A stretch of DNA of 24,648 nucleotides from Bifidobacteriaceae bacterium (GTDB lineage Bacteria > Actinomycetota > Actinomycetes > Actinomycetales > WQXJ01): the NCBI GenBank assembly GCA_031279575.1, contig JAITIG010000104.1:1-24648 (forward strand), written 5' to 3'. Position numbers and translations under genes: made by a program. Below are positions 357 to 21,765 of this stretch, piece by piece. The stretch's first letter is position 1. Each line of letters opens with the position of its first letter. Below the pieces are notes generated by a model. That model was not told the origin of the DNA, ran no database searches, and saw nothing but the letters and a program-made list of their open reading frames with translations.

Positions 357-902
357 TCAGGCCTCAGGCTCCTGGCGGTCCGCCGCGCCCGCCCGCCGCC
401 CGGCTGTCGCGGTTTTCGCCAAGGAGATCAGCAACTCGCCGGACAGGACAACCAGGCCCAGCGCGATGGCCAGGCGGCTCGGCCAAGTCGGCGCGATGAT
501 GAGGCCGATTCTCGCCTCGTGCACCGCCAGCGCGGCGAAGAAGCTGTGGAATGCGGCCGCTGCCAGCGCCAGGCAAACCGCCAAAGAGAAGCCCTCCGCC
601 ACTATCTTGACGGCCCGTCGGGGACGCGGAGCCAGCCGCTCGGTCAGGAGTTTCACCTGGATCATGGCATCGTCCCGCTGGGTCGCTGGCAAGCCCAGAA
701 AGACAGCCGCCGCGACTGACAACTCGACCAACTCGTACAGCCCGGGGACCGAGGCCCCCGAACTGACTCGGACAGTCACGTCGACCACTATCGCCGCCAT
801 GATGGCCATGGTCAGAGTCGACGCGAGGACGCCCAGGATGCCGCTGGCGCCGTGGCAGGCGCGTCTGGCCAGGCTCAGGACTCTCACTGTCACCGCTATC
901 AC
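357..902 (-). CDS. dctQ: TRAP transporter small permease (DctQ family)
   Basis: The 181-residue protein has four hydrophobic segments (about 20-45, 55-75, 95-120 and 135-160), the length and topology of the small membrane subunit of tripartite ATP-independent periplasmic transporters. The motif region LPATQRDDAMIQVKLLTERL resembles the cytoplasmic-loop motif of DctQ proteins. It starts with GTG, and that codon overlaps the TGA of the upstream dctM (GTGA), so translation is probably coupled. It is last in the operon. The usual order is dctP-dctQ-dctM; here dctM precedes dctQ. DctQ and DctM together form the Na+-driven membrane component that accepts substrate from DctP. Confidence 0.88.
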   Translation of the reverse strand: MIAVTVRVLSLARRACHGASGILGVLASTLTMAIMAAIVVDVTVRVSSGASVPGLYELVELSVAAAVFLGLPATQRDDAMIQVKLLTERLAPRPRRAVKIVAEGFSLAVCLALAAAAFHSFFAALAVHEARIGLIIAPTWPSRLAIALGLVVLSGELLISLAKTATAGRRAGAADRQEPEA

Positions 903-2251
903 ATCATCCGATCTGGGAGGAAGAGAACAATGTCGGGGAAAAGCATGATTAAGGCCACGAAAACGAGATCCGCCGCCAGGAACGGCAGCACGCCCCGGAA
1001 CGCGTCTTCGGCTTTGACCCCGGGAACGCTAGATCCGATGACGAAGGCGTTCATCCCGACCGGCGGGGTCACCATGCCGATCTCGATCAGCTTGACGGCC
1101 AAGACTCCGAACACGATCGGGTCGTAGCCGATGGCGTCGATGACGGGAAACACCACCGGCACAAAGACCAGCACAATCGACACCGAATCCAAGATCATGC
1201 CCAGTGGCACCATCGCGGCCAGGACAACCAGGACGAGGATCCAACCGGGGACGGGCAGGCCCGCCGCCCAGACGGCGAAGGCGCTGGGGACCCCGAGCCG
1301 CACCATCAAAAAGGTCAGCATCGCTCCGCCGACCACGATCAGGAAGACCGCGCTGGTCAGGCTGGCCGACTCGACCAAAGAGGTGACGACAGCTCGCAGG
1401 CGGGTCTCGCCGCTCTTGCGCCGTGAGGCCAGCAGGATCACCAGGGCGGCCAGCGCCCCGATTCCCCCCGCCTCTGTGGCTGTGTAGAGCCCGGTGTACA
1501 TGCCCACCACTACGACACCGAAGAGGGCCAGCACTTTGATGAGAGAGAGGTATTTGCGCCGGTCGAAGGCGGCCCGGCCGGTTGTTCCCCTGGCCTGGCC
1601 GGACCAGCGGTCGCGCCGTTCGCGACCCACCAGAGCCGGGTTGCGCACGGCCAGGACCACCGCGATCGCACTGTAGAGGACGGCGGAGATGATCCCGGGG
1701 ATAATGCCCGCGATGAGGAGTTTGCCAATCGACGTGCCGGTGACAACGCCGTAGAGCACCATAGCCACGCTCGGCGGGATCATGATGCCAAGCGTCCCGG
1801 CGATGGCGATCGCCCCGGCGCCGAAGCGCTTGTTGTATCCATGGGCCACCATCTCCTCGATGGTGGCCTTGCCGACCGAGGCCACGGTGGCAACGCTCGA
1901 TCCGGTGATTGCCGCGAAGCCGGCGCAAGCGAAGATCCCGGCTATCGCGAGGCTGCCCGGCAACCGGCGAAGATGGTGCTCGATAAGGTCGAACAAGTCG
2001 CCGGCGATGCCGGCCCTCTGGGCGAAGGTCCCCATCAACACGAACAAGGGGACCACGGCCAAGGCGTAGTCTGCCGTCGCGTTGAAGACCGCGCCGCCCA
2101 GCGCGCTCTGCGACATCCCCGCGCCCGAGGCGACAGTCAGCCCGATGGTCGACGCGCCGATCAGGGCGAAGGCGATCGGCACGCCGAGCAGGATCAAGGC
2201 GACGAGGAGCACTAGGACGCCCAGGAAGACCAGGCAGGCAGTCAAGCTCAC
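899..2251 (-). CDS. dctM: TRAP transporter large permease (DctM family)
   Basis: This 450-residue, highly hydrophobic protein has about 12 membrane segments, as expected for the DctM channel subunit. Family-like stretches are GVPIAFALIG near the N-terminus, IMIPPSVAMVLYGVVTGTSIGKL (about 155-178), MILDSVSIVLVFVPVVFPVI and KLIEIGMVTPPVGMNAFVI near the C-terminus, the last a strong DctM signature. The GTG start at 2251 has a good Shine-Dalgarno (GAGGGGG at 2259-2265). It lies 31 nt after dctP and overlaps dctQ by 4 nt. Substrate cannot be read from this subunit; context suggests a carboxylate such as an acidic amino acid or 5-oxoproline. Confidence 0.93.
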   Translation of the reverse strand: MSLTACLVFLGVLVLLVALILLGVPIAFALIGASTIGLTVASGAGMSQSALGGAVFNATADYALAVVPLFVLMGTFAQRAGIAGDLFDLIEHHLRRLPGSLAIAGIFACAGFAAITGSSVATVASVGKATIEEMVAHGYNKRFGAGAIAIAGTLGIMIPPSVAMVLYGVVTGTSIGKLLIAGIIPGIISAVLYSAIAVVLAVRNPALVGRERRDRWSGQARGTTGRAAFDRRKYLSLIKVLALFGVVVVGMYTGLYTATEAGGIGALAALVILLASRRKSGETRLRAVVTSLVESASLTSAVFLIVVGGAMLTFLMVRLGVPSAFAVWAAGLPVPGWILVLVVLAAMVPLGMILDSVSIVLVFVPVVFPVIDAIGYDPIVFGVLAVKLIEIGMVTPPVGMNAFVIGSSVPGVKAEDAFRGVLPFLAADLVFVALIMLFPDIVLFLPDRMM

Positions 2252-2282
2252 CGTGAGTCCCCCTCGCGCCCTGTTGGAACAC

Positions 2283-3407
2283 TCAGAAGCGAGCCGCGCA
2301 TTCGGCGACGCCGTCAGTTGGCAGGCCGAATTCTTGGTCGTAGGCGCTCATAGCGTCCACATAGGCCCGTTCGAAGGCTGTGGCCGCATCGCCGCCGCCG
2401 ACGCGCTCGCGCCAAGCTTGCAGCAGGTCGTCGCCGAGCACGTCGGCCCAGGCCTGGCGTTCGGTGTCGCCCCAGACGCTGACCGTGCCGCCGGCCGCTG
2501 CGATGGTATCGCAGGCAGACGCGTAGGCGGCCGCCTCGAAACCAAAATAGGCGTCGATGGCGTCAGCGGCTTTGTCTTGCATGATCTTCTTGACATCCTC
2601 GCTCAGGCCGTCCCAGGTGTCGGCGTTGATCGAGACGGGGTAGGTCGACAGCAGTCCTTGGCGTGGATTGGCGACGTATGGCGCGACCTCGTAGAGCGCG
2701 GCCACCTCGATCGAGTCGAGCAGAATTCCCGAGTACGAGTCGACCACTCCGCGTTGGAGGGATTCGTAGAGTTCGTTGAACACGATCGAGACTGGGTTGG
2801 CGCCGACCTCGGCCAGGGTGACCGAAAAGGATCCGGCGGCCCGGATGGACCTGCCTTTGAGATCGCCGATCGACGAGATGGGCTTGTCTTTGGCGCCCAG
2901 AAGCGCGTCTCGGGCCGGCAGGAAGAACAGAGGCACAACGTTGTTGCGCGCGTATTCGGCCTTCATCTCGGACGATGACTCGTACATGTCCCGCAGGGAG
3001 AGCATGGCGGCTTTGGCGTTGGGGGCGAGGTACGGCACTCCCGTGATCGAGGTGAACGGCAGCTGGCTCTCGTAGTACAGCGCGCCAACAAAGCCGATGT
3101 CGGCGCGCCCGTCGCCGGTGCCCTGCAGGGTGTCGTCTGCGGCCAGCAAGGCGGCGTTCCAATGGAACGTGAAGGTGATCGCGCCGTCGGTCGCCTCGGT
3201 GACCGAGTCGGCCCAGGACTTCAGAGTTTGCGACAGCGAAGACCCTTCGGGCGCGAAGACCGAGAAGGCCAGGTCTTGCGCGGTGGCGGTTGTCCCGGTC
3301 TTGTCCGCCGGGTCGGCCACCACCCCGTCGCCGCAGGCTGCGGCCGCCAGCGCGAGGGGGGCCAACGCGATCCAAGCGGTCAGGCGTGTCTTGGTGGAAG
3401 TCTTCAT
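2283..3407 (-). CDS. dctP: TRAP transporter substrate-binding lipoprotein (DctP family)
   Basis: The chosen ATG at 3407 gives 374 residues and follows AAAGGAAA by about 9 nt; a TTG at 3425 in the same frame lies upstream of that site and is less likely. The N-terminus is a lipoprotein signal (MKTSTKTRLT, hydrophobic core, lipobox-like LAAAAC with Cys25). The mature part matches DctP solute receptors: GDGRADIGFVGALYY, a GRSIRAAGSFSVTLAEVGANPVSI segment of the substrate-clamping arginine type, and FNELYESLQRGVVDSYSG. It captures ligand outside the cell for DctM/DctQ. It follows the cyclase gene after 14 nt. Ligand identity is inferred only from the neighbouring enzyme. Confidence 0.9.
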   Translation of the reverse strand: MKTSTKTRLTAWIALAPLALAAAACGDGVVADPADKTGTTATAQDLAFSVFAPEGSSLSQTLKSWADSVTEATDGAITFTFHWNAALLAADDTLQGTGDGRADIGFVGALYYESQLPFTSITGVPYLAPNAKAAMLSLRDMYESSSEMKAEYARNNVVPLFFLPARDALLGAKDKPISSIGDLKGRSIRAAGSFSVTLAEVGANPVSIVFNELYESLQRGVVDSYSGILLDSIEVAALYEVAPYVANPRQGLLSTYPVSINADTWDGLSEDVKKIMQDKAADAIDAYFGFEAAAYASACDTIAAAGGTVSVWGDTERQAWADVLGDDLLQAWRERVGGGDAATAFERAYVDAMSAYDQEFGLPTDGVAECAARF

Positions 3408-3421
3408 GGTGGGTTTTCCTT

Positions 3422-4444
3422 TCAATGGCCGGGCGAGTCGAGCGTGGATTGGGCTACTTCGACAAGGGTGTTGAGCATTTGGACGTAAGCCAGCTGGCCC
3501 GGCAGCGGCACGCCGTCATCGGCGATCTCGGGCGTGCCGAAGGCGCCGTCGAGGGCGCCGGCGTCGATGCACGCGCGGAGCATGCGGTCAAGGTCGGACG
3601 GTGTCAGCATGGCCCGCTGCGCGCCGGTCATGAAGGCGGTCATGGCCCCGACCGCGTAGCCGCCCCAATCGGATATCGCCGCGACCAAGAACTCGTCGGT
3701 TGCCAGCACCGTGGTCGAGCCCCCGCCGCAGCCGCACTGGCACTTGCGGCCGGCCGGCATGATGTCGCGGATCTCTTCCGCCACGACGCCGAAGCCGGCC
3801 TCGTTGCCGCCATCGCCGATACCGAATGTGAGGATCCCCTTCGCGGCGGCACGCGAGAAGTACTCGTCGGGTTTTGTGTGGAGGGCGTCGTAGTCGATGC
3901 CCGTGGCGCCGTGGATGATGCCTTTGGCGTTGGGCGCGAGTTTCTCGATGGCGATCATGATCGCGGGGTCGAGCCGGCCCATCAGGTCCTCGGCGTGGGC
4001 CGCGGCCTCGGCGCGGTCGATGGGGCTGACCTCGAAAGTCACGGCGTGGGCTTGAGCTGGTTGGCCCGGCCGCCGGTAGTTCATCCCGGCAGCTCGCACG
4101 GTGGCGCGGATGGGTGGCTCAGCGCGGGCCTCCGAGAGGATGGTGACTTCGAGCCCGAACCCGAAGTGCAAGGCGCGGGCCAGGGCGACGGCGCCCGGGA
4201 TGCCGTCAACCTCGGAATGCGGCAGCACGGGCGGGCCTCCGGCCCCGGTCAGTATGACAACGTTTGCGCCCGGCTCTGCCGCCTCGGCGAACGCCCGCAC
4301 CGCCCGGGTGACCAAGGGCTCGCCGTACTTGCGGCGCACGGCGCCATAGAGGCGGTGCATGGCGCCGCGGGGCAAGTTGCCCGAGGCCGGGCGCATCTCG
4401 ACGGTGGCAAGGCGATCGATGTACTCTCCCAAGACTTGCGGCAT
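3422..4444 (-). CDS. D-glutamate cyclase-like protein (DUF4392)
   Basis: The 340-residue protein matches the bacterial short form of the D-glutamate cyclase family (Pfam PF14336), known in animals as the C-terminal part of DGLUCY, which converts D-glutamate to 5-oxo-D-proline. Visible family motifs are IAIEKLAPNAKG (165-175), FGIGDGGNEAGFG (207-219) and ISDWGGYAVGAM (257-268). The N-terminal GAGGPPVLPHSEVDGIPGAVALARAL segment fits the family too. The ATG at 4444 is chosen because GGAGGAACC directly precedes it; the longer open frame to 4591 crosses the promoter region. Residues 235-239 carry a Cys-rich CQCGC stretch in a loop. It is the first gene of the operon with dctPMQ. Substrate is known for animal members and inferred here. 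Confidence 0.82.
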   Translation of the reverse strand: MPQVLGEYIDRLATVEMRPASGNLPRGAMHRLYGAVRRKYGEPLVTRAVRAFAEAAEPGANVVILTGAGGPPVLPHSEVDGIPGAVALARALHFGFGLEVTILSEARAEPPIRATVRAAGMNYRRPGQPAQAHAVTFEVSPIDRAEAAAHAEDLMGRLDPAIMIAIEKLAPNAKGIIHGATGIDYDALHTKPDEYFSRAAAKGILTFGIGDGGNEAGFGVVAEEIRDIMPAGRKCQCGCGGGSTTVLATDEFLVAAISDWGGYAVGAMTAFMTGAQRAMLTPSDLDRMLRACIDAGALDGAFGTPEIADDGVPLPGQLAYVQMLNTLVEVAQSTLDSPGH

Positions 4445-4486
4445 GGTTCCTCCAGTGGGTGGGATTGGACTGCGGGGTTGACGCCT

Positions 4487-4516
4487 AAGGTAAAGTTCCT
4501 TGCGGAGCGATGTAAA
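4487..4516 (-). promoter_or_regulatory. Candidate promoter of the cyclase-TRAP operon
   Basis: On the minus strand a -35 TTTACA (4511-4516) and a -10 TACCTT (4487-4492) are separated by 18 nt. This is a good match to the vegetative TTGACA/TANNNT pattern of actinobacteria. It would give a leader of about 35 nt before the ATG at 4444, leaving room for the strong ribosome site. Not experimentally supported. Confidence 0.5.
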
Positions 4517-4549
4517 CATGTTGTTGAGCTTTTTTACACAAACGTTACA
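4511..4549. promoter_or_regulatory. Possible operator cluster in the divergent spacer
   Basis: This AT-rich island in a GC-rich window holds the perfect palindromes AACATGTT (4515-4522) and AACGTT (4541-4546). It also holds three TGTAA/TTACA elements: 4511-4515, 4534-4538 and 4545-4549, the first inverted relative to the other two. The first overlaps the -35 of the leftward promoter. The divergent neighbour encodes a PAS-HTH regulator, so it is a plausible binding region, but no site is known for this protein. Confidence 0.35.
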
Positions 4550-4565
4550 AGAAGCTGGAGTTTGA

Positions 4566-5312
4566 ATGAACAAACAGGGGCCGCGCCCCATCCCCGCCCA
4601 AGGCCGTCCCGCCGACCTCTCGCTCCAGCCGCCTTGGCTTAACGATGAGGATTACCAGGCAGAGGCCGTAAAAGTCGTCGCCCAGTTCAGCCCGATCGTC
4701 GAGCCTCTGGCCAAGGCTCTCGGCCCCAAGACCGAAGTCGTCTTGCACGATTTGTCGAAGCTGCCTGGCTCAATCGTGGCTATAGCGCAGTCCATCAGCG
4801 GGCGGCGGGTGGGCTCTCCCTCGACCAGCCTCGGCCTGACCACGATGTCGGCCAGCGAGCCGCCACCCCATTGGTTCAACTATCGGACCGAGATGCCAGG
4901 CGGGGTGGTTTGCCGCTCGTCGACCATCTTCCTGTACGGTGCCGCCGCCTTCCCGGTCGCGGCGCTGTGCATGAACACCGACGTCACCGAGGCGTTGCAA
5001 ATCCGGTCGCTGTTCGAGGCGGCAGTTGGCCCTTGGCCGCAGGCGGACCACCCGCCGGAGAACGAGGTCTTCTACGACAATCTGGTTTCCCTGACCGACG
5101 ACATCCTGCAGCGCTCAATCGCCTCGGTTGGCCGGCCGGTGGCAGCCATGACCAAGGCGCACAAGCTACGCGTCGTGGCCGAGCTGGACCAACGCGGGTT
5201 CTTCATTGTCCGCGAGGCCGCCGAGATCGCAGCTGAAGCGCTGGCGGTGACCCGCTACACCATCTACAACTACCTCAACGAGGTCCGCGACGACCCGGGC
5301 CGCCCGGCTTGA
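4566..5312 (+). CDS. YheO/DauR-like PAS-HTH transcriptional regulator
   Basis: This 248-residue protein has an N-terminal PAS-like YheO domain (about 34-145, including KALGPKTEVVLHDL and FPVAALCMNTDV). Its C-terminal helix-turn-helix (about 190-241) contains KLRVVAELDQRGFFIVREAAEIAAE and LAVTRYTIYNYLNEVR, as in PF08348/PF13309 proteins. The family includes DauR, the regulator of D-arginine use in Pseudomonas aeruginosa, and many members sit beside amino-acid catabolic genes. The ATG has GGAG (4557-4560) at 5-nt spacing. It is divergent from the cyclase-TRAP operon and 39 nt upstream of the Ldh_2 gene. I infer that it senses a D-amino acid or product through the PAS domain and controls both arms. 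Confidence 0.85.
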   Translation: MNKQGPRPIPAQGRPADLSLQPPWLNDEDYQAEAVKVVAQFSPIVEPLAKALGPKTEVVLHDLSKLPGSIVAIAQSISGRRVGSPSTSLGLTTMSASEPPPHWFNYRTEMPGGVVCRSSTIFLYGAAAFPVAALCMNTDVTEALQIRSLFEAAVGPWPQADHPPENEVFYDNLVSLTDDILQRSIASVGRPVAAMTKAHKLRVVAELDQRGFFIVREAAEIAAEALAVTRYTIYNYLNEVRDDPGRPA

Positions 5313-5351
5313 GTCGCCCCGTCGAACCTGTCGGTGCCCGAAGGAGGCCCA

Positions 5352-6380
5352 GTGAGAGTCGCAATCGACGACTTGCGCGCCAAAGTGCGGCGCGCCGTCC
5401 GCCAGCTCGGCTACCCAGAGGGGGAAGCCGGTGTCATCGTCGACGTGCTGATCTACGCCCAGCTGCGCGGCAACAACCAAGGGCTCGCCAAACTCGCCAC
5501 AGGGGGCGTCCCCCGGGCTGGCCAGGCGGCGCCTTTCGCCGTCGTCAAGCAGGGCGATCTGAGCGCTTTGCTGACGGGCGGGCAGGCCATGGTGACGGCG
5601 GCCAAAGCGGCCGACCTCGCGGCCCGGATGGCGGCCGAGCGCGGCATCGGCCTGGTGGCGGCGAATGACTCGCTGGGCTCTTCCGGCGCCATCGGCTACT
5701 ACGCCAGGCGGATCGCCGAGGCGGGCTTGATCGGGTTCATCGCCGTCGGCACCGGCGCCTTGCGCGCCGTCGCGCCAACCGGCTCGGCTGAGCCGCGGCT
5801 CGGCACCAATCCGCTGGCTTACGCGTTTCCCTACGACGGCGGGGTGGTGGTCTTCGACACCGCCACCGCCGCGATGGCCCGCTTCGGCGTCATCGAGCAC
5901 TGGCTGCGAGGCGAACCCCTGCCGGAGGGCATGGCCTTTGACGGCGCTGGCCAGCCGACCACCGACCCGGCAGCCGTGCTTGGCGCCGAAGCGGGAGCCG
6001 GAGGGGCCGGCGGCGCGGTGACTCCCTTCGGGGGGCACCGCGGCTATGGGCTCTCGCTGGCTGTGCAACTGCTGGGAGGCCCCTTCGCTCTGGCCGCTTT
6101 CCCGGGCGCAGCTGGCGCAGGCGGGCAGGGCTTCCTCGCGCTGGCGCTGGACCCAGGCTTGCTCAGCGGGCGCCAGGAGTATATGGCGCGCGCCAGCGAA
6201 CTGGTCGCCAGCGTCAAGGCGGCCCGGCCCCTGCCTGGGCAGCAGGTGCTCATGCCCGGGGAGAGGGGCGACCAAGTCGCGCGCCAGGCCGAGGAGATGG
6301 GCTACTTGGACATAGCCGATGGCATCTGGCTCAAGTTCCTCGAGTTGTTGGGCGAGGGGCCGGCTGAAGACTGCCCGTGA
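5352..6380 (+). CDS. Ldh_2 (malate/L-lactate dehydrogenase-type) oxidoreductase, NNQG variant
   Basis: The GTG at 5352 follows AAGGAGG (5341-5347) and gives 342 residues; an in-frame GTG at 5334 has no such site. The fold is the Ldh_2 family (PF02615) of NAD(P)-dependent 2-oxoacid and cyclic-imine reductases. Conserved pieces are LGTNPLAYAFP (150-160), FDTATAAMARFG (168-179) and FGGHRGYGLSLAVQLLGG (226-243). The family's usual LRGVDSHG stretch reads LRGNNQG (38-44), so the catalytic His is Gln. The usual SNHFG stretch reads NDSLGSSG (105-112), so the second His is also absent. It may be a distinct subfamily with its own chemistry. It lies downstream of the YheO-like regulator, probably co-transcribed, so a role in D-amino-acid or pyroglutamate metabolism is inferred. 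Substrate unknown. Confidence 0.8.
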   Translation: MRVAIDDLRAKVRRAVRQLGYPEGEAGVIVDVLIYAQLRGNNQGLAKLATGGVPRAGQAAPFAVVKQGDLSALLTGGQAMVTAAKAADLAARMAAERGIGLVAANDSLGSSGAIGYYARRIAEAGLIGFIAVGTGALRAVAPTGSAEPRLGTNPLAYAFPYDGGVVVFDTATAAMARFGVIEHWLRGEPLPEGMAFDGAGQPTTDPAAVLGAEAGAGGAGGAVTPFGGHRGYGLSLAVQLLGGPFALAAFPGAAGAGGQGFLALALDPGLLSGRQEYMARASELVASVKAARPLPGQQVLMPGERGDQVARQAEEMGYLDIADGIWLKFLELLGEGPAEDCP

Positions 6381-6400
6381 CGGGGGCCGGGGTGGGGGTG

Positions 6401-6424
6401 AAGTTCAGGTTGAGGTTTAGGTTT
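6401..6424 (+). repeat. Short hexamer tandem repeat (AGGTTN, four units)
   Basis: Four consecutive 6-nt units AAGTTC-AGGTTG-AGGTTT-AGGTTT lie in the spacer between the Ldh_2 and MerR genes, just after a G-rich run (6381-6400). It looks like simple-sequence slippage. No gene or known site is attached to it. Confidence 0.5.
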
Positions 6425-6449
6425 GTGGCGGGCGGACCGGCGTGGCGCG

Positions 6450-6478
6450 TTGACCAAACTGGGGGATGGGCCTAGCGT
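6450..6478 (+). promoter_or_regulatory. Candidate promoter of the MerR-family gene
   Basis: TTGACC (6450-6455) and TAGCGT (6473-6478) are separated by exactly 17 nt, a strong vegetative promoter match. Transcription would start near 6485, which excludes the ATG at 6466 as a start and supports initiation at 6550 or 6559. Confidence 0.6.
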
Positions 6479-6549
6479 CAAACAGTGGAGGCCGGCGCGG
6501 CCCCGGGGAGGGCCCCGGGGCGGGGACCGGCGCAAGAGCGAGGGAGACG

Positions 6550-7116
6550 GTGACGCGGATGGCCACAACAGGCGGCGGGCCGGTGGGACGCCAGGGCTTG
6601 CTGTTCGGCGAGCGCGTCACCGACGAGGCGGTCGGCTTCCGCGGCCCCACCGCCTGCCGCGCCGCCGGCATCACCTACCGGCAACTCGACTACTGGGCCC
6701 GCACCGGCCTGGTCGAGCCGAGCGTGCGCCCCGCCACCGGCTCCGGCACCCAGCGGCTCTACAACTTCCGCGACATCCTGGTGCTAAAAATTGTCAAACG
6801 CCTGCTCGACACCGGCGTCTCGCTGCACCAGATCCGCCTCGCCGTGCAGCACCTGCGCGATCGCGGCGTCGAAGACCTGGCCACGGTGACGCTGATGTCA
6901 GACGGCGCCTCGGTCTACGAGTGCGCCAACGCCGACGAGATGTTTGACCTGGTGCAAGGCGGCCAAGGCGTGTTCGGGATCGCCGTCTGCCGGGTTTGGC
7001 GGGAAGTCGAGGGCACGCTGGCGGAACTCCCCTCGGAGCGCTCCCAAGCCACCGCCCCGACCGCCGCCCCGGTCGACGAGTTGGCGGCGCGCCGCCTGCG
7101 CCGGCGCGTTTCGTAG
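6550..7116 (+). CDS. MerR-family transcriptional regulator (Rv1830-like)
   Basis: The MerR winged helix occupies about residues 29-100 and contains FRGPTACRAAGITYRQLDYWARTGLVEPS, then GSGTQRLYNFRDILVLKIVKRLLDTGVSLHQIR. This is the very conserved actinobacterial MerR type related to Mycobacterium Rv1830, which lies near the garA/FtsR-type MerR region there. The C-terminal part (LATVTLMSDGASVYECANADEMFDLVQGGQGVFGIAVCRVWREVEG) is typical of that group and not a metal-binding tail. The GTG at 6550 (AGGGA 4 nt upstream) gives 188 residues; the ATG at 6559 is an alternative. Function is probably cell-cycle or growth-related regulation, inferred from the family; its target is not visible. Confidence 0.85.
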   Translation: MTRMATTGGGPVGRQGLLFGERVTDEAVGFRGPTACRAAGITYRQLDYWARTGLVEPSVRPATGSGTQRLYNFRDILVLKIVKRLLDTGVSLHQIRLAVQHLRDRGVEDLATVTLMSDGASVYECANADEMFDLVQGGQGVFGIAVCRVWREVEGTLAELPSERSQATAPTAAPVDELAARRLRRRVS

Positions 7117-7161
7117 TCTGAGACCCGGCGCCAGCGCGCCCCGGGGCCGCCAGGGCGATCT

Positions 7162-7167
7162 TAGCCT
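7162..7167 (+). promoter_or_regulatory. Candidate -10 element, possible leaderless start
   Basis: TAGCCT (TANNNT) ends 6 nt before the GTG start at 7174, the spacing expected if transcription begins at the start codon. No convincing -35 or well-spaced ribosome site is present. Confidence 0.3.
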
Positions 7168-7173
7168 GAGGCG

Positions 7174-8814
7174 GTGACATCAACACACCTCGGGAGCGGA
7201 CCGCTGGCGCCACTCGGCATCGGCCTGTTCCGCACCTTGTGGATCGCGCAGCTGGTGTCCAACGTCGGCAGCTGGATGCAGGCTGTCGGCGCCCAATGGC
7301 TGCTGGTCGGCGGGCGCGACGCGGCCCTGCTGACGGCCCTGGTCTCAGCCGCCTCGCTGATCCCGGTCTTCGCCCTGTCGCTGCCGGCCGGGGTGCTGGC
7401 GGACTCGCTCGACCGGCGCTGGGTGCTGGTGTTCTCCAACGCCTTCATGTGCCTGGCGGCCGGCCTGCTGGCGCTGCTGACCTGGAGCGGCAACGCCGGC
7501 CCGGCCGTGGTTTTGATGCTGACCTTCGCCCTGGGCTGCGGCACCGCCCTGGGCGGCCCGGCCTGGCAGGCCATCCAACCCGACCTGGTGCCGCGCCACC
7601 TGCTGCTGCCCGCCTCGGCGCTGTCCAGCGCCAACATCAACATCGCGCGGGCGGTGGGGCCGGCCCTGGCCGGCGCGGTGGTGGCCTGGGCCGGCCCGTC
7701 CCTGGTGTTCGCCATCAACACGGTGACCTTCCTGGGCGTCATCGGGGCGGTTTTGCTGCTGCGCACCCAGCGCCGCTCGCGCGGCTCGGTGGGCCTGGCC
7801 CCGGCCGTCGCGGCCGGCCTGCGCTATGTCCGCAACGCGCCGGGGGTGCGGCGCATCGCCCTGCGGGCGGCGCTGTTCGTGGTGCCGGGCAGCGCGCTGT
7901 GGGCGCTGCTGGCGGTGGTGGCGCACAGCGGCCTGCACCTTGGCTCGCGCGGCTACGGGCTGATGCTGGGGGCGCTGGGCGGCGGCGCGGTTGGCGGCGC
8001 CCTGCTGCTGCCGTTCCTGCGCGGGCGGTTGTCGAACAACGCCATCTTGGCCCTGAGCACGCTGCTCTACTCCGCCTGCCTGGTGGCGGTGGCGCTGACC
8101 GGATCGGTGGGGCTGGTGGTGGCGGTGCTGCTGCTGGCCGGGGTGGGCTGGGTCTGCTGCCTGTCGGTGCTCAACACCGCCATGCTGCTGAGCCTGCCGA
8201 ACTGGGTGCGGGCCCGCTCGATGGCCGTCTACAACGTTGTGTTCATGGGCGGCCAGGGGCTTGGCGCGCTGTTTTGGGGGGCTGTCGGCAACCTGCTGGG
8301 CCCCGACGCGGCGCTGCTCGCGGCCGCCGCCATCACCCTGGGGTGCCTGGCCACAATGCACTTGTGGCCGCTTTACCGCGCCACCGGCACGCTCGACCGC
8401 ACCACCCAGCCGATGTCGGAGTCGACGCCCGATGACGCCGTGCCGGCCTCAGCGGGCCCCGTCCAGATCCAGATCGAATACCGGGTGGCGGCCGATGACG
8501 AGTCCGCCTTCAGGCGGGCGGCGCGGGCGCTGGCCTCATCGCGCCGGCGCACCGGGGCGGTCACCTGGGACCTGTGGCAGGACGTGGCCGACCAGCGCGT
8601 CTTCATCGAGCAGTACACGCTGCCGAGTTGGGGCGAGCACCTGGCCCAGCGCGAGGAGCGCATCACGGGCTACGACAGGGAGTTGGAGAGCCGGGCGGAG
8701 GCTTTGGCCGCCCCCCAGCCGGGTGTGCGCCACCTGGTGCGGCCCGAGTCCATGCCAAGGGTCGACCACGGGCTGGCTGTGGCCGATTTGCAAGCGAAAG
8801 GGAGAACCAAATGA
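7174..8814 (+). CDS. MFS exporter with C-terminal monooxygenase-like domain (MFS_3)
   Basis: This 546-residue protein has 11-12 membrane helices over residues 10-400 and a soluble C-terminal part (about 425-520). The soluble part contains VQIQIEYRVAADDESAFRRA and RVFIEQYTLPSWGEHLAQ, the ABM-like domain found in PF05977 (transmembrane secretion effector/EntS-like) transporters. The loop AGVLADSLDRRWVLV (about 69-83) matches the MFS motif between helices 2 and 3. Length is normal for the family. It probably exports a small molecule or siderophore-like compound by proton antiport; the substrate cannot be read. GTG start with a weak ribosome site. Its TGA overlaps the next ATG (ATGA), coupling it to the DUF308 gene. 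Confidence 0.85.
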   Translation: MTSTHLGSGPLAPLGIGLFRTLWIAQLVSNVGSWMQAVGAQWLLVGGRDAALLTALVSAASLIPVFALSLPAGVLADSLDRRWVLVFSNAFMCLAAGLLALLTWSGNAGPAVVLMLTFALGCGTALGGPAWQAIQPDLVPRHLLLPASALSSANINIARAVGPALAGAVVAWAGPSLVFAINTVTFLGVIGAVLLLRTQRRSRGSVGLAPAVAAGLRYVRNAPGVRRIALRAALFVVPGSALWALLAVVAHSGLHLGSRGYGLMLGALGGGAVGGALLLPFLRGRLSNNAILALSTLLYSACLVAVALTGSVGLVVAVLLLAGVGWVCCLSVLNTAMLLSLPNWVRARSMAVYNVVFMGGQGLGALFWGAVGNLLGPDAALLAAAAITLGCLATMHLWPLYRATGTLDRTTQPMSESTPDDAVPASAGPVQIQIEYRVAADDESAFRRAARALASSRRRTGAVTWDLWQDVADQRVFIEQYTLPSWGEHLAQREERITGYDRELESRAEALAAPQPGVRHLVRPESMPRVDHGLAVADLQAKGRTK

Positions 8815-9557
8815 CCGCCACCGGCGAGGGACCCGCGCGCGGGTTCGACCCGTCCAAGGCCTGGGCCTGGGGGCCCGCCCCGGCGCCCGAATCGGCGGGC
8901 TGGCCCGGCCCCGGCGCCCCGCCCGGCCCCGCCCCGGGCCCGCCGCCCGGCGTTGGCCCGCGCGGGTTCGGGCCGGGCGGGTTCGGCCCGCCCGGCCGCC
9001 GGCGGCGCCCGAGCCGCCGGTTTGTCGGCCGGATGCGCGCCTGGCTGGTCTTCCGCGGCGCGCTGGGGCTTGTCCTAGGCGGCCTCATCCTGCTCCAGCC
9101 GACCTTGTCCCTGGACGCGTTTGCGCTGGCGGTGGGCGTGTTCTTCGTCATCGGCGGGGTGGCGCGGGTGGTGGTCGGGGCGGCCGAGACGCACTACGCG
9201 GCCGGCCTGCGGGTGCTCAACGTGGTGGTGGGCGCGCTGCTGGTGGCGCTCGGCGCCGCCTCCATCCGCTACCCCGGGTTCGGGCTGGTGGCCACGGTGG
9301 CGATCATCGGGTTCGCCTGGATGATGGAGGGGGCGGCCACCTTGGCCGTCTTGCCGCCGCGCCACCGGGGGCGGGGTTGGGCCATCGCCTTCGGCGCGGT
9401 CTCGCTGCTGGCCGGGGCGGTGGTGATTGTGTGGCCTTGGGCCTGGCTGCTGCCGCTGCTGATTGTGGTCGGCGCCGCCCTGGCGGTGGGGGGAGTCTTC
9501 GACATCGCCCGCGCCGCCAAACTGAGGCCGGGTTGGGGGCGCCGGTCCGTGGAATAA
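8811..9557 (+). CDS. HdeD/DUF308-family membrane protein
   Basis: The ATG at 8811 overlaps the exporter's TGA by 4 nt and has GGGAG upstream, so the 248-residue reading is preferred over longer open frames. Residues 1-70 form a Pro/Gly-rich cytoplasmic tail that is probably disordered. Residues about 72-240 form six membrane helices in three two-helix repeats (for example [45 protein letters not shown]), the DUF308/HdeD pattern. E. coli HdeD is linked to acid resistance, but the role of actinobacterial members is unknown. Coupling to the exporter suggests a shared membrane function. Confidence 0.78.
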
Positions 9558-9564
9558 TCGAGGC

Positions 9565-10047
9565 ATGGCCATCAGAGACATCCGCGTCATCGGAGACCCG
9601 GTGCTGCGCACCCCCTGCGACCCGATCACCAAGATCGACGAACGCGTGGAAGCACTGGTCAAGGACCTGCTGGAGACTGTCGACCAAGAAGGGCGGGCCG
9701 GTTTGGCGGCCAACCAGATTGGCGTGTCGCTGCGCGCGTTCTCCTACAACATCGAAGACGAGGTCGGCTACGTGCTCAACCCCAAGCTGGTCGAGCTGTC
9801 CGAGGACAGCCAAGACGGCGACGAGGGCTGCTTGTCGGTGCCGGGCCTGTGGTTCGCCTGCAAGCGGGCGGACTACGCCCGCGTTGTGGGGCAGAACCTG
9901 GCGGGGGAGGAAGTCATGGTCGAGGGCGCCGGGCTGATGGCGCGCTGCCTGCAGCACGAATTAGACCATCTAGACGGCCATTTGTTCTTGGACCGGCTCG
10001 ACCGCGCCACCCGCAAAAAGGCGATGGCGGCTGTCCGCGACCTATAA
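9565..10047 (+). CDS. def: Peptide deformylase
   Basis: This 160-residue protein carries all three deformylase motifs: GLAANQ (46-51, from G-h-G-h-A-A-x-Q; the preceding residue is Ala), EGCLS (87-91, Cys89) and QHELDH (130-135; His131, Glu132, His135). Cys89 and the two histidines bind the catalytic metal. It removes the N-formyl group from nascent proteins in the cytosol. Length is slightly short, as in the actinobacterial type with a compact C-terminus. The ATG lies 7 nt after the upstream DUF308 gene. GAGG sits too close for good spacing, and an AATAAT hexamer ends 6 nt before the ATG, so leaderless initiation is possible. Terminates with TAA. Confidence 0.93.
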
Positions 10048-10160
10048 ACACCTCGTTACGCTCCGCCCCGACTGGCGGCGCCGGGAGGTCATAGGGCACA
10101 ATTGATGCCAGCGCGCCGCGCGCGGCCGCTACCCGTTTCCATTGGCAGCCTGGTCGCAGG

Positions 10161-10197
10161 TTGTCCGAGGCCGTTGGGGAAGACGCACCTCGGACAA
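10161..10197 (+). promoter_or_regulatory. Perfect 10-bp inverted repeat upstream of the DUF3145 gene
   Basis: TTGTCCGAGG (10161-10170) and CCTCGGACAA (10188-10197) are exact reverse complements separated by 17 nt. They end 5 nt before the AGGAGG ribosome site of the next gene. It can be a DNA operator with half-sites about 27 bp apart or an mRNA hairpin in the 5' leader. There is no T-run, so it is not a classical terminator. Confidence 0.55.
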
Positions 10198-10214
10198 GCG
10201 CTAGGAGGCTGATG

Positions 10215-10715
10215 ATGTCTGGTGTGATCACGCGCGGCGTGCTCTTTGTGCATTCATCGACCCGGGCTGTCAGCCCGCATGTCGAATGGGTGGCGGCCAA
10301 CATCTTGGGCGCGCGCGTCTCGATGGATTGGACCGAGCAGCCCGCCGCGCCCGGCACGCTGCGGGCGGAGCACTCCTGGCAGGGCCCGCAAGGCACCGGC
10401 GCGCGCCTCGCCTCGGCCCTGCGCGGCTGGGAGCACCTGCGCTACGAGGTGAGCGAGGAGCCCTCCTTCGGGACCGATGGCGGGCGCTGGTCGCACACGC
10501 CCTCGCTGGGCATCTTCCACGCCGTCATCGACGTCCACGGCAACACCATGGTGCCGGAGGACCGCATCCGCGCCGCCTTGGACTGCGGCGGGGACTTGAT
10601 CGCGATGCGCCGCCAGCTGGACTTGGCCCTGGGGCAGGCCTGGGACGACGAGTTGGAGCCGTTCCGCTACGCCGGCGCGGGCGCGCCGGTCCGCTGGCTG
10701 CACCAAGTCGGCTAA
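10215..10715 (+). CDS. DUF3145 family protein
   Basis: The ATG at 10215 lies 6 nt after AGGAGG (10203-10208) and gives 166 residues; the ATG at 10212 is too close. The sequence follows DUF3145 (PF11343) closely: RGVLFVHSSTRAVSPHVEWVAANILG, VSMDWTEQPAAPGTLRAEHSWQGPQGTGARLASALRGWEHLRYEVSEEPS and SHTPSLGIFHAVIDVHGNTMVPEDRIRAAL. The family is restricted to Actinomycetota and has no known function. It is cytosolic, with no signal or membrane segment. It is convergent with fabF; in actinobacteria it is often near the fab cluster, so a link to lipid synthesis is possible but unproven. Terminates with TAA. Confidence 0.9.
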   Translation: MSGVITRGVLFVHSSTRAVSPHVEWVAANILGARVSMDWTEQPAAPGTLRAEHSWQGPQGTGARLASALRGWEHLRYEVSEEPSFGTDGGRWSHTPSLGIFHAVIDVHGNTMVPEDRIRAALDCGGDLIAMRRQLDLALGQAWDDELEPFRYAGAGAPVRWLHQVG

Positions 10716-19031: not shown

Positions 19032-19078
19032 GGCGCCGGCCGGCCGGCCGGTTGGCGCGGCGTCAGGCGGCCGGCGCC
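19032..19078 (-). terminator. Perfect 10-bp GC hairpin at the 3' end of valS
   Basis: GGCGCCGGCC (19032-19041) and GGCCGGCGCC (19069-19078) are exact complements across the valS stop codon. It may be a terminator lacking a U-tract or an artefact of the GGCC-rich composition. Confidence 0.35.
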
Positions 19079-19785
19079 AAGGTCGCCTGCGCCAGTTGGA
19101 CCGCCTCGCCGTCCGATGCCGCCAGGACCAGTTCGGCCGCCCGCCCGGCCGCCATCACATCGGCCCGGGCCGCCGCCGCCGCGGCCGCCCAGGCCGCCGG
19201 GACGGCCACGCTCGCCTGGGCGATCTCGGTCCGCATCGACACCTTGGCCTCCGATTTGACGCGGCGCAGCTCGCTCAGCACCCGGCCGGCCACGGCCAGC
19301 ACCGCCGGGTCGCCGCCTGCCGGCAGCTCGGCCCGGGTGGGCCAGGCGGCGCGGTGGACCGAGTCGCCCGGGGCGTGCCACCAGGACCAGACCTCCTCGG
19401 TGGCGAAGGGCTGGAACGGCGCCAGCAGGCGCAGCAGCGCGGCCAGGGCCAAGCCCAGGGCGGTCTGGGCGCTGAGGGCCGCCTGCGGGCCGGCCGCGCC
19501 GTTGGCGCGGGCTTTGACCAGTTCGATGTAGTCGTCGCAGAAGGTCCAGAAGAAGGCCTCGACCGCCTCCAAGGCCTTGGTGTGGTCATAGGCCTCCAGC
19601 GCCTCGGTGGCCCGCTCCACCACCAGGCCGAGCTGCGCCAGCATGGCCAAGTCCACCGGCTCCGCCACCGCCGCCGGGTCCAACTCCAGGCCCGCCCCGG
19701 GGGCCCGCTGGGCGCCGGGGCCGGGCTGGGAGCCGGCGGCGGCATCGGGCGGGGGGGTGGCGGCCAGGAAGGACAAGGCGAACTT
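19063..19785 (-). pseudogene. valS: valS, C-terminal part beyond the in-frame stop
   Basis: In the same frame as the N-terminal part and directly after its TAA, 240 codons continue as KFALSFLAATPPP and on to a normal stop. They encode the anticodon-binding domain (PF08264): LGLVVERATEALEAYDHTKALEAVEAFFWTFCDDYIELVKAR and LLRLLAPFQPFATEEVWSWW, then the KSEAKVSM region. There is a Pro/Ala-rich insert at about 7-33 of this part. Nothing looks decayed. A TTG at 19776 could start a separate polypeptide but has no good ribosome site. Either the gene is broken, the base is wrong, the stop is read through, or the enzyme is made in two pieces. Confidence 0.8.
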
Positions 19786-21765
19786 TTAGGCGTTGAGCAG
19801 CTTGATGGCCAGGCGCCGGCCGATCTTCATCTGGCCGGGGTCGAAGGCGGCGTCTGTGCCAAGGCGGGCGGCGGCCGCCCAGTAGCGCACCGCGTCTGAG
19901 CCGTGCTGGTCCAAGAGCCCCGCCGGGGTGACCACGTTGCCAACCGACTTGGACATCTTTTTGCGATCCGGGTCCAGAATGAAACCGCTGATGGCGGCCT
20001 TGTAGAAGGGGAGCGAGGCCTGCTCCAGGTGGGCTCGCACCACGGTGGCGAACAGCCAGGTGCGGATGATGTCCTGGGCCTGGGGGCGCAAGTCCATGGG
20101 GAAAGTGGCGGCGAACAGGGCCGGGTTGTCGCGCCAGTGGGCAGCGATCTGCGGGGTCAGCGAACTGGTGGCCCAGGTGTCCATCACATCTGGGTCGGCC
20201 ATGAACCCGCCGGCCTGGCCGCGCTGGCCCGCCGCGTAGCCCGGGGGCGCCTCGGAGGCCGGGTCGACCGGCAGCTCGGACTCATCGGGCAGGATCGGGT
20301 GGTCGTAGTCCGGCGCGCCAAACCGGTCCAGCGGGTACCAGACCGGGAACGGGACGCCAAAAAAGCGCTGGCGGGAGATCAGCCAATCGCTGGTCAAACC
20401 CTCCACCCAGTTCTGGTAGCGGACGCCCATGAAGTCCGGGAACCACTCCAACTCCCGGCCGCGCCGCAGCAGCTGCTCGCGCACCGCCATGTCCACCCCG
20501 CCGTTCGACAAGTACCACTGCCGGGTCGGGATGATCTCCAAGGGCTTGTCGCCGCGCTCGAAGAACTTCACCGGGTGGGTGATCGGCCGCGGCTCGCCCA
20601 CCAAATCGCCGGACTGGCGCAGCAGCTCCACCACCCGCTGCTGGGCGCTGAAAACCGTCAGGCCCGCCAACTCGGCGTAGGCGGCGCGGCCTTGCGGCGT
20701 GTCGATCCCCGGCGGCGGCTCGGGCAGGACGCGGCCGTCCCAACCCAAGATGGCCCGGGTCTCCAAGTGCAGCTCGCGCCACCACACGACATCGGTCAGG
20801 TCGCCGAAGGTGCAGACCATGGCGATGCCGGAGCCTTTTTCCGGGGTGGCCAGGCGGTGGGCCACCACCGGCACCTCGGCGCCGAACAGGGGCACCCGGA
20901 CGCGTTGGCCAAACAGCGCCTGGTAGCGGGCGTCGTCGGGGTGGGCGACCAGCGCCACGCAGGCCGCCAGCAGCTCCGGGCGGGTGGTCTCGATGAAGAC
21001 CGCGCCCTCGGCGCCGACCCGGGGGAAGCCGATGCGGTGGTAGGCGCCGGGGCGTTCGCGGTCCTCCAACTCGGCTTGGGCGACGGCCGTGCGGTAGGTC
21101 ACATCCCACAGCGTGGGGGCCAGCTGCTGGTAGGCCTCGCCGCGTTTGAGGTTGCGCAGGAAGGCCAGCTGCGAGGTCGCCTGGGCGTGGCGGCCGATGG
21201 TCTGATAGGTCTGCGACCAGTCGACCGACAAGCCCAAATGCCGCCACAGGGCCTCGAACTGCTTCTCGTCCTCGGCGGTCAGGCGCTGGCACAACTCGAC
21301 AAAATTGGGCCGCGAGACGGGCAGCTGCTCGGCCGACTTGGTCCGCTTGGCCGCCCCGGCGCCGGGGGGCGGGGCGAAGTCCGGGTCGTAGGGCAGCGAC
21401 GGGTCGCAGCGCACGCCGTAGTAGTTCTGCACCCGGCGCTCGGTGGGCAGGCCGTTGTCGTCCCAGCCCATCGGGTAGAACACCGCCAGGCCGCGCATGC
21501 GCTTGAAGCGCGCCACGATGTCGGTGTGGGTGTAGCTGAAAACATGCCCCACGTGCAAGCTGCCGGAGACGGTGGGCGGCGGGGTGTCGATGGAGTAGAC
21601 CTGCTCCCGGGCCAACCCGGCCGGGAAGCGGTAGGTCCCCTGGGCGGACCAGGCGGCGTCCCATTTCTCCTCCAAGCCGTCCAGCGACGGGCGGTTAGGC
21701 ACCCGGGGGGGCAGGTGGCTGGGGGCGGGGCTGGGCTGGTTGGGCTGGCTGGGCTGGTGGCTCAC
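19786..21765 (-). CDS. valS: Valyl-tRNA synthetase, N-terminal catalytic and editing part ending at a premature TAA
   Basis: The 659 residues hold the whole class I catalytic core and editing domain of ValS: HVGH (71-74) for HIGH, GWDDNGLPTERRVQNYYGVRCDPSLPYDPDF, the editing region (about 240-400) and KMSKS (603-607). The frame stops at TAA (19786-19788) within KLLNA-stop-KFAL, where other ValS proteins read on with a Ser-like residue (NASKFAL). No shift occurs: 901 codons run in phase from 21765 to 19063. The GTG start follows GGAGG at 10-nt spacing. Codons 4-12 are three CAGCCCARC repeats (Gln-Pro-Ser/Asn). It charges tRNA-Val; without the anticodon domain this part alone should be impaired. 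Confidence 0.88.
   Translation of the reverse strand: MSHQPSQPNQPSPAPSHLPPRVPNRPSLDGLEEKWDAAWSAQGTYRFPAGLAREQVYSIDTPPPTVSGSLHVGHVFSYTHTDIVARFKRMRGLAVFYPMGWDDNGLPTERRVQNYYGVRCDPSLPYDPDFAPPPGAGAAKRTKSAEQLPVSRPNFVELCQRLTAEDEKQFEALWRHLGLSVDWSQTYQTIGRHAQATSQLAFLRNLKRGEAYQQLAPTLWDVTYRTAVAQAELEDRERPGAYHRIGFPRVGAEGAVFIETTRPELLAACVALVAHPDDARYQALFGQRVRVPLFGAEVPVVAHRLATPEKGSGIAMVCTFGDLTDVVWWRELHLETRAILGWDGRVLPEPPPGIDTPQGRAAYAELAGLTVFSAQQRVVELLRQSGDLVGEPRPITHPVKFFERGDKPLEIIPTRQWYLSNGGVDMAVREQLLRRGRELEWFPDFMGVRYQNWVEGLTSDWLISRQRFFGVPFPVWYPLDRFGAPDYDHPILPDESELPVDPASEAPPGYAAGQRGQAGGFMADPDVMDTWATSSLTPQIAAHWRDNPALFAATFPMDLRPQAQDIIRTWLFATVVRAHLEQASLPFYKAAISGFILDPDRKKMSKSVGNVVTPAGLLDQHGSDAVRYWAAAARLGTDAAFDPGQMKIGRRLAIKLLNA
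21730..21756 (-). repeat. Three 9-nt tandem repeats at the valS N-terminus
   Basis: CAGCCCAGC, CAGCCCAAC and CAGCCCAGC follow one another, encoding QPS-QPN-QPS before the conserved ValS body. A low-complexity, probably disordered tail. Confidence 0.6.

Follow-up and report, generated by a model that had tools for sequence, protein, structure and literature searches.

A conserved TRAP importer–PF14336 enzyme operon in a Bifidobacteriaceae bacterium and a divergently encoded Ldh_2-fold protein lacking both family histidines

An operon coupling a transporter to a metalloenzyme was examined at positions 357 to 6380 of contig JAITIG010000104.1 (assembly GCA_031279575.1) of a Bifidobacteriaceae bacterium; the whole analyzed stretch of 24,648 nucleotides is hereafter called the window. 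A gene for a PF14336 (GLUCM-like_C, DUF4392) enzyme is followed by dctP, dctM, and dctQ of a tripartite ATP-independent periplasmic (TRAP) transporter. The operon is real, and these four genes, in this order, constitute the conserved unit. We consider it probable that the TRAP proteins import a carboxylate and that the PF14336 metalloenzyme processes this carboxylate or its product. TRAP importers usually carry organic acids, and family knowledge suggests that a small carboxylate would be taken up here. The dinuclear-metal enzyme would then act on it, or on its product, inside the cell, as conservation of the operon and similar operons with TRAP or tripartite tricarboxylate transporter (TTT) genes suggest. 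To judge from the layout, the operon is probably under the control of a divergently encoded YheO-type regulator in this organism, and an Ldh_2-fold protein encoded downstream of the regulator would be a local addition. An importer with an enzyme is an ordinary kind of unit, and the enzyme family is one of unsettled function. Compact as it is, an operon that pairs a lone PF14336 enzyme with just one importer narrows the substrates worth testing to a few and would show whether the annotation is right. The initial annotation had described all six genes as a candidate D-glutamate/5-oxo-D-proline module; our analysis supports the four-gene operon and does not support the six-part module.

A Pfam scan of 15 window proteins confirmed the families and divergent layout of the six genes, all of which exceeded the cut-off (DctQ, DctM, DctP, PF14336, PAS_6 with HTH_22, and Ldh_2), while two starts were corrected. 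The three TRAP genes lie together (Pfam and TIGR00786). On the minus strand, the PF14336 gene occupies 3422..4444 (340 aa; E 3.8e-52; score 178 bits, cut-off 27.9), dctP, for the solute-binding protein, 2283..3407 (374 aa from the ATG at 3407), dctM, for the large permease, 899..2251 (450 aa; PF06808, E 3.7e-84; TIGR00786 over cut-off), and dctQ, for the small permease, 357..902 (181 aa; PF04290, E 1.8e-18), the last two overlapping by 4 nt. A 389-aa enzyme starting at 4591 was rejected, as 20 of the 21 PF14336 proteins in the alignment start only at its residue 50 ('MPQV'), P0002 being longer; the 21, window enzyme included, were among 97 matches listed. The sequence ggagg just 5' of the start at 4444 fits a ribosome-binding site.

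The same order of PF14336, DctP, DctM, and DctQ is kept in a 20-kb locus (L098) of one related genome, at 67, 59, 68, and 52% identity, respectively (DctQ over 159 aa). On one side, this operon is flanked by an AAA gene that we class as RadA-like; on the other lie moaE, a gene with a molybdopterin-binding domain, and cytochrome bd genes. These flanking genes are unrelated. In the 20 kb around the L098 operon, no match was found to either the YheO-type regulator or the Ldh_2 protein. Because neither gene flanks it, the right-hand arm lies outside the conserved unit as far as the single readable related genome shows; the gene set of the initial annotation is therefore conserved in its importer–enzyme part and not in its regulator and Ldh_2 part. 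The three closest PF14336 relatives among the matches listed are on contigs of 7769, 8940, and 2,914,491 bases, and DctP relatives with 57–59% identity are on contigs of identical sizes.

The four-gene operon is rare in actinobacteria. A gene of the PF14336 subfamily was found in 1 of 257 genomes of the genus reached by similarity of valyl-tRNA synthetase (ValS), which shows that the search is able to detect it. Partly overlapping genome samples, searched without a positive control, gave none in 396 (E 1e-60) and none in 37, 397, and 48 (E 1e-40). Regarding ValS, the first 100 genomes reached at most 73%, short side matches aside, whereas G345, G259, and G318 stood at 82–86%, and the 257-genome genus was entered via G345. 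A single-protein search of genome contigs with the PF14336 enzyme retrieved no relative, an alignment-based search retrieved PF14336 relatives of at most 39% identity among the matches listed, and viral contigs held no relative of either query protein.

Further evidence comes from 94 other PF14336 loci, namely 78 listed from GTDB contigs and 16 of 17 plasmid loci (L080–L096) hand-picked from 64 plasmid records, L086 being omitted as a copy of L087. Neighbors were classified by single-sequence phmmer, which under-counts. Within 4 kb of the PF14336 gene, a recurring aminotransferase-type gene was found at 14 loci, a peptide-type solute-binding protein at 13, a TRAP or TTT permease at 11, RidA at 11, an amino-acid solute-binding protein at 7, an arylmalonate decarboxylase (AMDase)/racemase at 7, PF07286 at 4, and PxpA at 2. 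Among 43 loci with full flanks, L086 included, transporter matches numbered 26 within 4 kb (17 loci) versus 13 at 4–8 kb (8 loci), and this proximity counts for an importer–enzyme partnership. In Sagittula, a LysR gene diverges from PF14336-DctP-DctQ-DctM, and Salipiger carries DctP-DctQ-DctM-arylmalonate decarboxylase-PF14336. TTT replaces TRAP in Roseinatronobacter (PF14336-PF14336-TctC-TctB-TctA), Devosia (TctB-TctA-PF14336-TctC), and S. meliloti (PF14336-TctC-TctB-TctA-RidA). In the alphaproteobacterial operons (L080, L081, L082, and L087), as in the window, the PF14336 gene lies next to genes for the binding protein and permeases of a tripartite importer, and a regulator gene is adjacent or divergent; however, the regulator is of the LysR rather than the YheO type, and the enzyme, 37–38% identical to that of the window, belongs to another branch and lacks the CxCxC loop. 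The coupling of a TRAP importer to a PF14336 enzyme proposed initially is thus borne out by L098 and recurs elsewhere, although nothing specific to D-glutamate was found. The available portions of the literature on DUF4392, DUF1445, and glutamate cyclase contain no description of a TRAP- or TTT-linked PF14336 operon.

Several points weigh against this interpretation. The permease count of 11 in 94 is low, and the hand-picked plasmid loci (16 of the 94) contribute several of these cases. Peptide ATP-binding cassette importers, aminotransferases, or other genes adjoin many PF14336 genes. No cysteine occurs in the CxCxC loop region of L080, L081 (first copy), L082, L086, and L087, which sit on another tree branch; because of these two features, the alphaproteobacterial enzymes may catalyze another reaction. 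The window's own subfamily has been seen with its gene context in one genome only, and the 7769- and 8940-base contigs are tied to both genes by size agreement alone, which is an indirect link.

All six acidic ligands, mapped on TON_0340 of Thermococcus, are present in the window enzyme (E78, D80, E167, D211, E215, and D310), and they are identical in 145 of 145 aligned rows, except for D310, found in 144 with one gap. Because all six are intact, the enzyme is probably active. In the alignment of the TON_0340 paper, as far as its text was available, these ligands are conserved up to human, and TON_0340 (PDB 4dwz, 4fc5, 5gkx, and 5gl2–5gl4), which like the window enzyme is a stand-alone PF14336 protein, is described as a weak Mn-dependent phosphatase that cleaves AMP with a kcat/KM of 1.9 x 10^2 per M per s and loses this activity in the E59Q and D157L variants (PMC5132392). 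With the same six ligands, the window protein might likewise be a phosphatase of small molecules, the role put forward for TON_0340. We regard this as highly improbable, given that the reported activity is very low and may be incidental. Moreover, TON_0340 lacks the CxCxC loop (C235, C237, and C239) of the window protein, whose gene lies in a TRAP operon. The usual organic-acid cargo of TRAP importers likewise speaks against a phosphatase.

The assignment made initially, in which D-glutamate or its lactam 5-oxo-D-proline is both imported and handled by the PF14336 enzyme, appears unlikely. It derives from the animal D-glutamate cyclase (GLUCM/DGLUCY, mouse 9030617O03Rik), for which the available text of PMC5339696 reports an assay of the cloned and purified mouse protein, made of DUF1445 (PF07286) and DUF4392. 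The PF14336 domain and the six ligands are shared with the window enzyme, but the latter consists of PF14336 alone, and no PF07286 gene was found in the window or L098 by tblastn with one PF07286 protein, a search in which the control L095 matched. The six tree rows (taken from the profile search) that have PF07286 or PxpA at most 5 kb away all fall outside the 15-row clade of the window enzyme, the context being known for 1 of the 14 other clade rows. Some support can be drawn from L014 (7905-9776) and L063 (from 7863, with the PF07286 frame from 9003), where a PF07286-related gene follows PF14336 4 bp on and the pair resembles the animal cyclase in unfused form. Their enzymes are 38–39% identical to that of the window, against 37–38% for the tested TRAP/TTT relatives, and because they are as close as those relatives, the chemistry may be shared. 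Pyroglutamate is also bound by some TRAP binding proteins, according to the titles of entries 2pfy, 2pfz, and 6wgm. A remote PF14336 gene on a Pseudoalteromonas plasmid (L095:2519-7616) lies in a row of genes for GH3, a PF07286-related 'putative hydro-lyase', PxpA, PF14336, and D-amino acid aminotransferase; this looks like D-glutamate use, and L095 makes a stronger candidate for a D-glutamate/5-oxo-D-proline locus than the window does. The initial remark that no 5-oxoprolinase is visible holds for the window, where tblastn with one PxpA and one PF07286 protein gave no match and the 15 Pfam-scanned proteins included no such family. Nor did these 15 proteins include a Pfam family of DgcN or DgcA, no direct search with either sequence having been made.

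By sequence, the closest solved relatives of the window DctP are 4n6d, then 4nap and 4pgn; by fold, the closest is 4nap, with 7nr2 and 7nra (coumarate and cinnamate) in the top four. Entries 4pgn and 4pgp are presumably Dde_0634 as well, the protein of 4nap. Overall, the window DctP is somewhat closer to binders of aromatic or indole acids than to the pyroglutamate-binding DctP6 and DctP7. Dde_0634 binds indole-3-acetic acid, according to the available text of PMC9973260, but with 25% identity over the aligned fold, the ligand of the window protein may differ, even though Dde_0634 is its nearest relative by fold and second by sequence. The arginine that contacts the ligand carboxylate in TRAP binding proteins (PMC3610893, seen in part) is kept, IRAAG aligning with IRGAG of 4nap. 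We read the N-terminus of DctP as lipoprotein-like. A minority possibility, rather doubtful in itself, is that the imported substrate is an aromatic amino acid or a (keto)acid of aromatic or indole type, on which the PF14336 enzyme performs another metal-dependent reaction.

Whether the divergent arm belongs to the same pathway was weighed separately. The YheO-type regulator (4566..5312, plus strand, 248 aa) has the PAS_6 and HTH_22 domain pair of YheO/DauR-type proteins (PF08348, E 4.4e-26; PF13309, E 1.2e-19). It might sense the imported acid and switch both arms, with Ldh_2 catalyzing a later step. This is conceivable, though we would not favor it. It would agree with the divergent layout around a 121-bp intergenic region (4445..4565), with the gap of about 40 nt between the regulator and Ldh_2 genes, and with the presence in L017 of a YheO-type gene (33% identity) close to three PF14336 genes. 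On the other hand, neither gene flanks the L098 operon, no search having been made for a YheO-type gene in the rest of that genome, and the sole Ldh_2 match of that genome (E up to 1e-5) is a canonical SHG protein, 35% identical and 0.5 Mb from the operon. Within 4 kb of PF14336, the under-counting phmmer search placed YheO at 1 and Ldh_2 at 0 of the 94 loci, and none of the contigs of 7769, 8940, and 2914491 bases appears among the 120 of 1038 Ldh_2 rows listed. The related genome gives no support for counting the regulator and Ldh_2 among the genes of the module. L017 itself (3891-10228, a Chloroflexota metagenome-assembled genome) carries three tandem PF14336 genes, the YheO-type regulator, and a peptide-type binding protein. 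The window regulator has no relative among solved structures at E up to 1, and nothing relevant was found among the matches listed for DauR in the literature.

The intergenic sequence between the two arms is AT-rich. At window positions 4505-4560, an AT-rich stretch amid GC-rich DNA contains several TGTAA/TTACA words and is a candidate operator. A simple consensus scan of 4300-4800 gave no sigma-70-like site, and nothing clear emerged for an operator or promoter.

The Ldh_2-fold protein (5352..6380, plus strand) matches the PF02615 profile and clearly has the Ldh_2 fold, and the initial description of it as odd proved apt. Its start is most likely the GTG at 5352, preceded by gaaggagg, rather than the earlier call at 5334. 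According to the available text of PMC3527362, His44 and His116 of E. coli AllD are invariant in the family, and all members are suggested to use one or the other as the catalytic residue. In the window protein, His44 is replaced by Gln36, His116 by Ser103, and Arg48 by Lys40 (HMMER alignments, P0118 numbering; by our count, chain numbers run two ahead of those in the paper). These three residues occur in 120 of 120 rows listed of 1038 matches, window copy included; the exact RGNNQG motif is present in 113, and SHG within the first 80 residues in none. Such a subfamily goes against the proposal that every member uses one of the two histidines. Compared with type 2 malate/lactate, L-sulfolactate, and ureidoglycolate dehydrogenases, the fold and the cofactor site (Thr145, Pro147, and Asp162 of the PMC3527362 list) are kept, but besides the three replacements, Lys224 becomes Arg223 in the window copy and a loop is one residue shorter. 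Because both family histidines are lost, the sequence suggests that the protein does not perform ordinary 2-hydroxyacid dehydrogenation. Histidines occur nearby at position 99 in 105 of the 120 rows and at position 101 in 55, and such a shifted histidine could stand in for the lost ones; the window copy and four other rows have none at positions 95–106. The window copy also diverges further, deviating at 18 of 125 strongly conserved columns (median 1, next-highest 7 among the rows listed), and so it appears to be either changing function or decaying.

Tentatively, stand-alone PF14336 enzymes in tripartite-importer operons may catalyze an undescribed dinuclear-metal reaction on an imported carboxylate other than D-glutamate. 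The neighboring Ldh_2 protein may belong to an unrecognized subfamily in which both histidines considered essential are replaced (RGNNQG for SHG, Ser103 for His116), and it would then have a different chemistry or be a sensor-like pseudoenzyme.

The Ldh_2 query found no match in 298 genomes at E 1e-70. Among the rows listed, seven of eight organism-named relatives are of Patescibacteria type (Saccharibacteria and others), and one is from Leucobacter. Saccharibacteria live on actinobacteria, and exchange of the gene between them and an actinobacterial host is possible.

Other arrangements of PF14336 were also observed. Two paralogs of different clades flank an aminotransferase-like gene in L006, L009, L016, L019, L021, L026, L033, L037, L083, and L084, often with aldehyde dehydrogenase and 3-hydroxyisobutyrate-dehydrogenase-like genes. 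An asparagine-synthase-like gene adjoins PF14336 in L007, L015, L022, and L063. Elsewhere in the window, valyl-tRNA synthetase (19063-21765, minus strand) is split into two frames, 19786-21765 covering profile positions 1-630 and 19063-19776 covering 643-825, perhaps through a sequencing or assembly error.

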